Assembly: GCA_026991225.1 (NCBI GenBank)
Contig: JALXCB010000083.1
Location: 1-62,191, forward strand
From: Anaerolineae bacterium
GTDB taxonomy: Bacteria; Chloroflexota; Anaerolineae; J102
Length of the DNA: 62,191 nucleotides
Reading direction: 5' to 3'
How positions within the stretch are numbered: the stretch's first letter is position 1; each line of letters begins with the position of its first letter. Positions 20,343 to 32,345 of the stretch are shown here, in pieces. Below the pieces are notes generated by a model. It was not told the origin of the DNA, ran no database searches, and saw only the letters and a list, made by a program, of their open reading frames with translations. The position numbers and the translations under genes were made by a program.

Positions 20343-20665
20343 TGTTCCGAAAAAAGGATTAGGGAACGCAGATGACGCAGATTGAAACGGATGAACGCAG
20401 ATGAAAAGAAAAAATCTGTGAAAATCATCTGCGAAAATCTGCGATGCGAAGCATCCGTGTCATCTGTGTTCTCATTTTCGTCCGTATCGGCGAGCTATCG
20501 CTATTTCGAAAATAACGTTGCGTTCGTCTGAAAGAGCGCCTCGAAGCCCGCGTTGGGCGAGTCTGCAACGGACGTGATGCGTGAAACGTGAAACGTGAGC
20601 ATCTTACGCATCACGTTTCACGCGTCACGCCTTCGGCTTCCCGCACCATCTCGGCCTTTCCGACT
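20343..20665. repeat. Two modular repeats back to back (centre B then centre A)
   Basis: The first (about 20343-20495) has GATTAGGGAACGCAGATGAC and ends CTCATTTTCGTCCGTATCGGCGAG split as centre B plus left module. The second begins at the right-end motif CTATTTCGAAAATAAC (about 20501) and runs in the opposite sense through ACGTGAAACG and CTTCGGCTTCCCGC. They fill the gap between ppk and prsW. Confidence 0.7.
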
Positions 20666-24784: not shown

Positions 24785-24794
24785 CTCTTTTGAC

Positions 24795-24947
24795 GCAACT
24801 ACTAAGGTCGCGTCACCACTTTTTGCCACGAAGATACGAAGAGGACGAAGGTGCGAAGCCTTTTCCCCTATTTTTTCTTTGTGTCTTCGTAAAACTTCGA
24901 GCCTTCGTGGCTTTTGGTGGTCTAAAGTCAAGTACGTTAGCAGTTAC
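24795..24947. mobile_element. MITE-like element
   Basis: Starts GCAACTACTAAGG and ends GTTAGCAGTTAC; the interior is a palindrome with GCCACGAAGATACGAAG and CTTCGAGCCTTCGTGGC. It fills the gap between two convergent genes. No clear target duplication is visible. Confidence 0.65.
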
Positions 24948-24949
24948 GG

Positions 24950-26479: not shown

Positions 26480-26660
26480 CTGCTTTGAAAATAGATTTGG
26501 AGGACGCAGATGACGCAGATTGAAACGGATGAACGCAGATAAAAAGAAAAAAATCTGTAAAAATCATCTGCGGAAATCTGCGATGCGAAGCATCCATGTC
26601 ATCTGCGTTCTCATTTTCGTCCGTATCGGCGAGCTTTCGCTCGTGACGCCTGCTCTTGGG
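26480..26660. repeat. Modular repeat, centre B, both ends
   Basis: Right end GCTTTGAAAATAG (26481-26494), centre ACGCAGATGACGCAGATTG with its mirror, left module CGTATCGGCGAGC (about 26623-26635) then CGTGACGCCTGC. It overlaps the 3' end of the next gene, encoding the last residues and stop of that protein. Confidence 0.8.
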
Positions 26661-27615
26661 CGTAGGCGATCCAGGCGGCGTAGTCGGGCTGGTTCCACTT
26701 GGGCGCTTTGACGATGGCCGCTAGTTCCTCTTCGCTCATGGCGGCCAGCTTTTCGAAGGTGCACACGCCCGCGTCGTATAGCCGGGCCTCGTAGGTCTTG
26801 CCGATGCCGGGCAGGCTCTCGAAATCATCGGGCTCCTGACCGCTCCACACATGCCCGACCGTGCCCGTCTCTTCGGCCAGCCGCCGGGCGTCCGTCTTGA
26901 TCGCGTCCAGGTCCACGGCCTGGAAGTCCTTGAGATCGAAGATCTCGGCCAGCTTTTCGTTGGGCGCAGTGGCCACCTGCCAGAATGTGCCGATGCCGGC
27001 GCGATAGAGTTTGTCTTCATACACCCGCCCGATGCCGTGGATCCGGGCCAGCTTCTGCGGACAGTGGCTGACGGTGGTTTCCGATTCCGATTCCGGTTGG
27101 GCTTCGGCCGTGGCCGCCGCGGGCGGCGTTTCCTTCGCCTCGCTCGCCTCTGCTTCTGCCGCGATGGCCGCGAGTCGGGCGGCGGGCGCTGCTTCCACCG
27201 CTGCGGGTAGCGTTTCTTCTGGCCCTGGCGCCACTTCCGCTTCCCCGGCGGCTTCTTCGACGCCTTCAGCAGATCGCTCTGCCCCCGCTTCTTCGGCGGG
27301 AGCGGAGGCTACCGCTTCTTCGAGTTCAGCCTCGACCGCCGCCTCCTCGGCGACTGCTTCGACGGCAGCGATCGGCTGTTCTGGGGTCGTTTCGGCGGCG
27401 GGAGCGGGAGGTTCGGGCGCAGATTCCAATGCCTCATGGAGATCATCGATTTTCCCTTCGATGGCCCCCAACTCCGCCTTGCGGGCCTGAAGCTCCGCGG
27501 TCATTTTTGCCAACTGATCCCGGCAGGATTCGTAATTTTTGCGGCCCATGAAGAGTCCAATCAGGCCGCCTATGATGAGTCCTCCAAAAAATGAAAGCCA
27601 GGGCGAAATTGACAT
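26611..27615 (-). CDS. Membrane-anchored protein with two helix-hairpin-helix (H3TH-like) domains
   Basis: The 334-residue protein has an N-terminal membrane helix (WLSFFGGLIIGGLIGLFMG), a coiled coil (RDQLAKMTAELQARKAEL), a low-complexity Ala/Glu/Pro linker (about 68-180), and two C-terminal HhH-type domains: LARIHGIGRVYEDKLYRAG and LPGIGKTYEARLYDAG. This tail resembles the H3TH proteins annotated as flap-endonuclease-like. It could tether DNA or RNA to the membrane. The last 12 codons and the TGA are part of a dispersed repeat. [10 protein letters not shown] precedes ATG 27615. Confidence 0.8.
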   Translation of the reverse strand: MSISPWLSFFGGLIIGGLIGLFMGRKNYESCRDQLAKMTAELQARKAELGAIEGKIDDLHEALESAPEPPAPAAETTPEQPIAAVEAVAEEAAVEAELEEAVASAPAEEAGAERSAEGVEEAAGEAEVAPGPEETLPAAVEAAPAARLAAIAAEAEASEAKETPPAAATAEAQPESESETTVSHCPQKLARIHGIGRVYEDKLYRAGIGTFWQVATAPNEKLAEIFDLKDFQAVDLDAIKTDARRLAEETGTVGHVWSGQEPDDFESLPGIGKTYEARLYDAGVCTFEKLAAMSEEELAAIVKAPKWNQPDYAAWIAYAQEQASRAKARRYGRK

Positions 27616-27665
27616 AGCTCCTCCTCCGTCTGTGACGCGTAGGTGAAAAAAGAAATGATGGGGTT

Positions 27666-27694
27666 ATTGTATCAATTTGGGATTGAAAAAACAA
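27666..27694 (-). promoter_or_regulatory. Promoter of the HhH-domain gene
   Basis: On the minus strand TTGTTT (27689-27694), 17 bp, TACAAT (27666-27671). It overlaps the T-run of the upstream terminator. Confidence 0.55.
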
Positions 27695-27731
27695 ACGCCA
27701 GCAACGAGGGGTCATGCCTGGCTGCTGGCGT
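27684..27731 (-). terminator. Intrinsic terminator after the 67-residue membrane protein
   Basis: On the minus strand ACGCCAGCA (27723-27731 complement) pairs with TGCTGGCGT (27695-27703 complement), then TTTGTTTTTT. It lies 25 bp after the stop. Confidence 0.7.
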
Positions 27732-27756
27732 CGTGGATTGCCGTGTGGCGAGCGGC

Positions 27757-27960
27757 TTACACTGGCTGTTTTTCCGCGATCTGATCTTCCAGATCGGCGA
27801 TCTCCTGCTGAGCGGACTGCAACTGGGCGTCCTGCGCCATCAGCTCCTGTTTCATCCGCTCGATCTGTTTGCGGCAGGTTTCATAATTCTGTCGGGCGAT
27901 GAGCACGCCCACGATCCAGCCAATGACCAGGCCGATGAATAAGGCGAGCCAGGGGGACAT
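27757..27960 (-). CDS. Small membrane/coiled-coil protein, paralogue of the HhH protein N-terminus
   Basis: The 67-residue protein has a membrane helix (WLALFIGLVIGWIVGVLIA) and a coiled coil (KQIERMKQELMAQDAQLQSA). It matches the first 60 residues of the next protein downstream: SPWL..F, GLxIG, RxNYExCR, then a coiled coil. SD GAGGAGG lies 6 nt before ATG 27960 and a TATAAT (28042-28047, minus strand) about 80 bp upstream. It probably inserts in the same membrane and may pair with the larger protein. Confidence 0.85.
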   Translation of the reverse strand: MSPWLALFIGLVIGWIVGVLIARQNYETCRKQIERMKQELMAQDAQLQSAQQEIADLEDQIAEKQPV

Positions 27961-28079
27961 TATTCACCTCCTCGAATGAAAGAGAAAAGCGTGGTGCGGT
28001 GGGTAAGTGTGGTGGATGAGGAATGTGGACCGTCTTACAAAATTATAGCACAAACTCCCCGTTGGCCGAAGTTGCAGTA

Positions 28080-31946: not shown

Positions 31947-32062
31947 AAATAAAGTAATCAGTGATCAGTTATCAGTAATCAGTGGAAATCTGCGAAGCAT
32001 CTGCGAAAATCTGCGTTCTCATTTTCATCGGTATCCGCGAGCCGTGGCTCGTGTCGCCTGCT
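31937..32062. repeat. Modular repeat, centre C plus part of B
   Basis: Right end CTGCTATGAAAATAAAGT (31938-31955), then ATCAGTTATCAGTAATCAG, AAATCTGCG repeats, TCATTTTCATCGGTATCCGC and CGTGTCGCCTG. The same right end occurs at 36550, showing the element is a family member. Confidence 0.75.
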
Positions 32063-32345
32063 ATGAAAGGATTAGGGAACGCAGATGACGCAGATTGAAA
32101 AGGATGGACGCAGATGAAAAGAAAAAATCCGTAACTGCTAACGTACTTGACTTTAGGCCGCCAAAAGCCACGAAGGCTCGAAGTTTTTCGAAGATACGAA
32201 GGAAACATAAAGAAAAATACGTCGTGCCTTCGCTTTTCTTCGTGTCTTCGTGGCAAAAAGTGGCGGCGACACCTTAGTAGTTACGTCATCTGCGAAAATC
32301 TGCGTTGCATCCGCGTTATCAGCGTTCCCATTTTCGTTCATCCAT
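32061..32345. repeat. Modular repeat, centre B, interrupted by a MITE
   Basis: The left arm GATTAGGGAACGCAGATGAC (32070) and right arm TCATCTGCGAAAATCTGCG (32286) match the intact copies at 20355 and 26500. In between sits the 154-bp MITE-like element. Confidence 0.75.
32131..32284. mobile_element. MITE-like element nested in another repeat
   Basis: Starts GTAACTGCTAACGTAC and ends CCTTAGTAGTTAC. Its interior is nearly the reverse complement of the 24795-24947 copy. Compared with intact host repeats, about seven host bases at the junction are missing and no target duplication is seen. Confidence 0.72.

Follow-up and report, generated by a model that had tools for sequence, protein, structure and literature searches.

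The window, that is, the whole 62,191-nt stretch of DNA analyzed here, carries two neighboring genes, and all the features of the pair given below lie on its minus strand. The short gene (27757–27960) encodes a 67-aa protein with a glycine-zipper membrane helix, an RxNYExCR segment, and a coiled coil; it is anchor-only, as no HhH was found in it by the domain search. The long gene (26611–27615) encodes a 334-aa protein comprising the anchor, a coiled coil, a disordered linker, and a tandem HhH part. In the AlphaFold2 model of the long protein, residues 5–65 (27421–27603), which hold the membrane helix (GxxxGxxxG) and the coiled coil, formed one continuous helix, residues 70–177 were disordered (pLDDT < 50), and the HhH part was confident. 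The HhH part modeled alone by AlphaFold2 from a 17-row alignment reached a mean pLDDT of 90.7. The Ala/Glu/Pro-rich linker (27067–27420) was predicted to be disordered; E, A, and P accounted for 84 of the 121 residues of the spacer, whose length of 121 aa follows our own cut. HhH repeats 1 (residues 184–259; 26839–27066) and 2 (residues 260–326; 26638–26838) follow, and the long protein matched HHH_5 (PF14520) in two stretches at 41.2 bits, which passed the Pfam gathering cut-off of 27. The original prediction had placed the spacer and two HhH domains in the long protein only and the same N-terminal helix, RxNYExCR segment, and coiled coil in both proteins; the HHH_5 match and the spacer composition bore out the former, and sequence comparison the latter.

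The long protein ends in a basic C-terminal tail (residue 327 onward and the stop; 26611–26637), which is absent from the six other proteins of the genus. The tail-encoding end of the gene lies inside a repeated sequence (26601–26654), of which a copy, 87% identical, is located at 32009–32062. This repeat adjoins a dispersed repeat of approximately 105 nt (26496–26600) with related copies at 20366–20461 and 32072–32127. For the 105-nt repeat, 40 matches (88–100% identical, 26496–26600 included) were scored in its own genome, with 173 first-look candidates. Inverted repeats of 104 and 52 nt, 86–88% complementary, at 24791–24949 and 32129–32288 flank the pair together with genes resembling coaX, coaBC, and fabD (names from the sequences).

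A terminator-like hairpin (27694–27732) with a T-rich tract after it (27684–27732 in all) lies between the two genes, with a folding energy of −25.7 kcal/mol (z = −5.18). The remaining five pair genomes have 50–85 nt between the genes and showed no comparable hairpin (z = −1.4 to 0.1); the genes thus look co-transcribed there. The terminator that had been proposed is therefore present here, but it is a local feature of the window genome. Candidate −10 boxes were located upstream of the short gene (TATAAT, 28042–28047, with a weak −35) and of the long gene (TACAAT, 27666–27671, with a weak −35 of three matches in six). The exact TATAAT was found upstream of the short gene in all six pair genomes, where the −35 box matched at 2 to 5 of six positions. 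As a consensus promoter scan of the window called none on the minus strand and the −35 boxes were weak, the further proposal of a separate promoter for each gene is unproven.

Conservation in the genus and the shared anchor

The pair was adjacent, with its order and strand kept, in six of the nine genomes of the genus (G000, G001, G005, G006, G007, and G008). A contig end falls inside the long gene of G004, and the short-protein search at E ≤ 0.1 gave no match in G002 (72% complete) or G003 (93% complete). The short orthologues in the genus were 61–75 aa long, and their frame was intact in all six pair genomes. The HhH part of six proteins of the genus was 68–84% identical to that of the window, and the linker ranged from 39 to 217 aa across seven long proteins of the genus. 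Three gene settings surround the pair, which stays together in all of them: a decarboxylase-like gene (PF00282) is adjacent in G000 and G005, a gene of 620–621 aa is adjacent in G001 and G007, and a radical-SAM-like gene (our reading of the sequence) is nearby in G006 and G008. The G004 locus has genes of both the decarboxylase-like and the radical-SAM-like settings. Outside the genus, the short protein was matched best by an HhH protein of G049, through its anchor (E = 8.2e-8). With six of nine genomes of the genus and the 13 loci outside it that are described below, the check on conservation of the pair in Chloroflexota came out in favor of the original prediction, and the pair is not found only here. 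G007 has an extra lone copy of the short anchor (L065:8637–8864), on whose contig no HhH gene was found; it is followed by an integrase-like gene (by our reading), a relative of which sits after the pair in L068.

With the short protein as the query, the long protein was retrieved at E = 4.4e-14 within their own genome, and local alignment of the two anchors gave z = 28 against shuffles; this similarity is thus not due to chance. Five residues (G10, G14, G18, R23, and C29) were invariant in 14 anchors from seven genomes, and the three invariant glycines, spaced by four, constitute the glycine zipper. Among the seven long proteins of the genus, the invariant residues were G12, G16, G20, R25, and C31. 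A Trp and a Gln were fixed in all seven short copies, and other residues occupied these positions in all seven long copies. In the anchor tree, the short anchors formed one clade (support of 0.993, from a short alignment of ~65 columns), and the internal groupings of the short copies matched those of the long copies, as expected if a single duplication occurred and the two copies then descended together.

The class-wide HhH family and its neighboring genes

At E ≤ 1e-10, the di-domain profile matched 123 of the 298 class genomes, single-HhH proteins included, and by our count the best match reached 1e-30 or lower in 61 of the 298. We examined 57 loci drawn from 54 of these 61 genomes; G018, G206, G215, G267, G275, G283, and G291 fell outside this sample, and the second HhH gene of L074 was removed before counting. 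Of 201 genomes drawn from the phylum, five matched at 1e-25, including two from other classes. A named-genome search gave 27 loci, which by title came from MAGs of Anaerolineae, Caldilineae, and other Chloroflexota except for two Verrucomicrobia and one Planctomycetota. The family proteins have two to seven HhH repeats, and the best di-domain ended at most 15 residues from the C-terminus in 53 of the 57 proteins. Another HhH gene of the window genome, C91 (L003, 265 aa), was set aside because its HhH lies near the N-terminus, in a different layout.

Neighboring genes were linked by BLAST at 1e-8 among frames of at least 70 aa within 4 kb; the frames came from a simple longest-ORF script and the membrane helices from a hydropathy window. 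Because of this length limit, the genus anchors (61–75 aa) were counted separately, and very short partners may be missed. Outside the genus, 13 loci have an anchor-only coiled-coil gene upstream of the HhH gene, the same arrangement as in the window; they belong to families f1, f4, f20, and f30, of which f1 is the family of the window itself, represented by a different genus. These upstream proteins were mostly 247–284 aa long, with a membrane helix and a coiled coil and without HhH. The partner lay within 95 nt in 11 of the 13 loci; in L081 and L129 it was 422 and 1490 nt away, with broken-looking frames in between. In six of the 10 families of the 57 loci, an anchor partner was not recognized by the BLAST neighbor search. 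The anchors of the two partners were similar (z = 7.9–14.3) in five of the nine non-genus pairs compared (L078 and four of f4), and no clear similarity was observed in the other four (L074, L134, L136, and L141; z = −0.9 to 2.9). The anchors of other families weakly resembled those of the genus (17% identity over helix and coiled coil), and the hhalign probability of 97.3 should be discounted because helices and coiled coils inflate such scores.

In five loci, all of f20 (L134, L136, L138, L141, and L142), the partner has an N-terminal membrane helix that the HhH protein lacks. There the partner is the obvious anchor, which is the best argument for joint action and argues for a hetero-oligomeric tether. 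Four of these five HhH proteins are hydrophobic over an internal stretch near residues 535–571, so those four may touch the membrane themselves. The hetero-oligomeric tether put forward in the original prediction is consistent with the conserved pairing and with the f20 loci where the partner alone has the N-terminal helix, and the assembly of the two proteins is a step that we infer.

A co-directional membrane-protein gene was found downstream of the HhH gene in 21 of the 57 loci (20 genomes, eight families), only 3–4 nt from it in six of the 21. All 12 downstream proteins that were scanned matched Ig-like models, 10 of them above the curated cut-off; two also matched fasciclin and one also an FGE domain, and the remaining nine of the 21 were linked by BLAST alone. 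The Ig-like companion at L121:6404–7729 is the one with the FGE-sulfatase domain (E = 9.3e-61). The upstream anchor and the downstream membrane protein occurred together only in L074 (one of 57). The Ig-like downstream gene is absent at the window locus, and the Ig-like scan of the window genome gave one sub-threshold Big_13 match, inside a 1247-aa frame. In three loci, a glycine-rich protein with repeated LLGGxGG-like motifs is encoded downstream of the HhH gene, as the next co-directional frame in L113 and L114 and one gene further in L077 (L077:5297–6175); the L077 protein had no Pfam match at 1e-3.

Orientation, HhH relatives, and the predicted role of the pair

The side of the membrane on which the HhH arm lies was predicted from the charges flanking the helix. 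Counting the N side from the last Met before the helix and leaving out five proteins truncated by a contig end and 10 that lacked a clear helix, we found more K and R after the helix than before it in 41 of the 42 scorable HhH proteins, the window's included; this pattern predicts that the HhH part lies inside the cell, on the cytoplasmic side. With untrimmed N flanks, L113, L122, and L152 showed more K/R on the N side. The short protein has K/R only after its helix. This orientation bears on a role in DNA uptake, which had been suggested originally. ComEA has, in outline, a membrane helix, a linker, and HhH, a layout that the long protein shares, but the HhH of ComEA is of the HHH_3 type and lies outside the membrane. 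The list of nine families that the long protein matched at E ≤ 1 contained neither HHH_3 (PF12836) nor SLBB, and a ComEA-like protein with HHH_3 is encoded elsewhere in the window genome. Because the K/R pattern puts the HhH inside and the genome has its own ComEA-like protein, the uptake role was not borne out, and a ComEA-like receptor function of the long protein is highly improbable.

The HhH part alone was compared with NCBIfam models, among which L21, RadA, S2, and DNA polymerase IV scored above PhaH (NF045508), the seventh of the 18 families listed (E = 1.6e-7, profile positions 168–231); NuoE was also among the matches, and all of them were far under the cut-offs of those models. The first hairpin of each repeat in the window protein has GxG. 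As read from the alignment, the second motif of each repeat is degenerate with no glycine hairpin, so the two glycine hairpins per domain of (HhH)2 were not found in the window protein. In all 17 proteins compared, the HhH part carried a net negative charge (−1 to −13), and K or R preceded the leucine of the second hairpin helix in both repeats. The residue after the hairpin GxG was basic in the genus and mostly not elsewhere in the class. The acidic charge and the glycine-less motif are not decisive on DNA binding, because the HhH of the window genome's ComEA-like protein is also acidic (net charge of −1) and the K/R is kept in 17 of 17.

Structural searches gave the closest folds of the HhH part as NusA, RadA/Rad51, and Pol theta, all at middling scores. 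Foldseek returned no hit at E ≤ 0.001; its best hit was 8y5l_NA (492 aa), which we take to be NusA, at E = 7.5e-3 over 134 columns with an rmsd of 12.7, a poor superposition, and named NusA entries followed it in both the Foldseek and VIA lists. With VIA, NusA AR2 with SuhB (6ib8_C) reached Z = 7.8, RadA reached 8.7, and Pol theta was within 1 of AR2; because the VIA list re-examines hits that Foldseek had returned, a family missing from it may still be related. The only solved relative by sequence was protein-O of the Dinoroseobacter shibae RC-LH1 complex, with a weak whole-sequence match (E = 0.013).

From the computed features, namely, the shared anchor, the conserved pairing, and the predicted disordered linker, HhH fold, and C-terminus-inside charges, we propose that the pair would form a tether of two subunits at the cytoplasmic membrane, on its inner face. 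The same glycine-zipper helix would insert both proteins, which may assemble through it and through the coiled coil behind it. The short protein would be an anchor-only subunit, either stoichiometric or capping, and the long protein would bear the working arm. Owing to the disordered acidic linker of the long protein, variable in length, the tandem HhH would extend into the cytoplasm, where it would hold a large partner. Most likely, the pair serves to fasten DNA, or some other large component of the cell, to the membrane; the likeliest partner would be nucleoid DNA held in a sequence-independent way, like the DNA binding reported for PhaH, which sits on storage granules. A membrane tether made of both proteins is probable. 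DNA as its ligand, argued by analogy, is plausible at somewhat less than an even chance, and the full reading of a two-subunit inner-membrane tether with its arm most likely on nucleoid DNA is tentative, coming close to an even chance.

Several observations weigh against this proposed tether and its DNA ligand. The pair is missing from G003 (93% complete), and six of the 10 families have no recognized anchor partner. The L21, RadA, S2, and DNA polymerase IV models outscored PhaH, the HhH relatives on L21, S2, NuoE, and protein-O need not bind DNA, and the HhH part is acidic in 17 of 17 proteins, with a second motif that has no glycine hairpin. The tether could instead serve a protein complex, the HhH part recruiting a cytosolic protein as the acidic repeats of NusA do; the cargo might, for example, belong to the machinery for transcription or translation, or be the portion of a membrane partner that faces the cytoplasm. 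This is possible, although we consider it on the unlikely side. It agrees with the best Foldseek hit taken as NusA, the Z of 7.8 for AR2 with SuhB, the net acidic HhH parts, and the presence of the same HhH type on the L21, S2, and NuoE models and weakly on protein-O, and AR2 is itself a dual HhH described as binding SuhB (PMC6614801). It is weakened by the lack of any Foldseek hit at or below 0.001, the top rmsd of 12.7, the slightly higher Z of RadA (8.7), and the precedent of PhaH, for which DNA binding by this HhH type is described (PMC13052382).

The neighboring genes suggest a different arrangement, in which the HhH protein is the cytoplasmic part of an envelope system with an Ig-like/fasciclin part outside, and the window genus has a reduced form. 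The related downstream membrane gene in 21 of 57 loci, Ig-like in all 12 scanned, favors such a system, but no such gene lies at the window, its genome has just the sub-threshold Big_13 match, both neighbors occur together only in L074 (one of 57), and a physical interaction is putative; we regard it as rather unlikely. More speculatively, and doubtfully, a modular tether family of Anaerolineae, made of anchor, HhH array, and often an Ig-like/fasciclin subunit, might link the nucleoid to the cell surface, with the window pair as its minimal inner form and the two to seven HhH repeats setting the strength of the hold. The short gene could also be a functionless partial duplicate, with the long protein acting alone, given that it resembles the first part of the long gene, that G002 and G003 have neither gene at strength, and that an anchor partner was not recognized in six of 10 families. 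This is quite improbable, as one duplication was kept in six of nine genomes with matching groupings in both copies, the W and Q are fixed only in the short copies, the short frame is intact in six of six genomes, and a further lone short copy is kept in G007.

If the preferred reading of a membrane tether for nucleoid DNA is true, a duplicated-anchor tether with an HhH arm on one subunit would give a concrete handle on the organization of Chloroflexota nucleoids and their attachment to the envelope. The family would also provide a context for orphan membrane HhH proteins such as protein-O of RC-LH1 (PMC12079452).

Comparison with known systems

Our literature search, in which subscription journals were poorly covered, returned no description of this pair or family, and we found described neither a membrane anchor that is duplicated and bears an HhH arm nor the Ig-like companion present in relatives. 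The short protein is similar to the small anchors ZapG/YhcB and YtxH in having one membrane helix followed by a coiled coil. Its scores were under the curated cut-offs for ZapG (33.3 bits against 150 for NF008672 and 27.5 against 33.5 for PF06295) and for YtxH (PF12732; 28.7 against 37.5), and a reading of the short protein as a Z-ring factor was rejected on these scores.

NusA is a soluble transcription factor. Its AR1-AR2 repeats are tandem dual-HhH domains among the closest folds to the HhH part of the long protein, and they differ in having no membrane anchor and in their ligand, the protein SuhB, to which the dual-HhH AR2 is described as binding (PMC6614801). Protein-O (PDB 8yy9 chain O) is described as a protein in which a membrane part is accompanied by a long flexible loop and by a C-terminal domain not resolved in the structure (PMC12079452), an arrangement like that of the long protein with its N-terminal membrane part, flexible loop, and C-terminal domain. 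The C-terminal domain of protein-O weakly matched the second HhH repeat, with no single stretch passing alone. Protein-O differs in having two membrane helices and in being bound in a photosynthetic complex; its gene lies between nuoE and nuoF, and its discoverers assigned it no function (PMC12079452). A photosynthetic accessory role was rejected, as the window genome had no match to Photo_RC (PF00124), for which a control search was positive in Synechococcus elongatus.

The closest functional parallel to the HhH arm is PhaH, the helix-hairpin-helix phasin of Caulobacter crescentus, for which we know of no paired anchor protein. Its C-terminal HhH is of the same type as that of the long protein (E = 1.6e-7 for the HhH part alone). 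The whole-protein match covered residues 62–247 (E = 2e-10), and, as it includes the spacer, it may reflect composition. The equivalog cut-off of NF045508 (250 bits) was not reached by the whole protein (41.2) or by the HhH part (31.7). A phasin role of the long protein was rejected, as no PhaC_N (PF07167) match was found in the window genome (97.34% complete), and the control search was positive in Caulobacter vibrioides. According to a review, PhaH attaches to granules by its N-terminus and binds DNA non-specifically by its HhH C-terminus, thus tethering the granule to the nucleoid (PMC13052382). The HhH type and the tether principle are already known from PhaH, and the window pair differs in the attachment, which would be by a membrane helix where the N-terminus of PhaH attaches to PHB granules.
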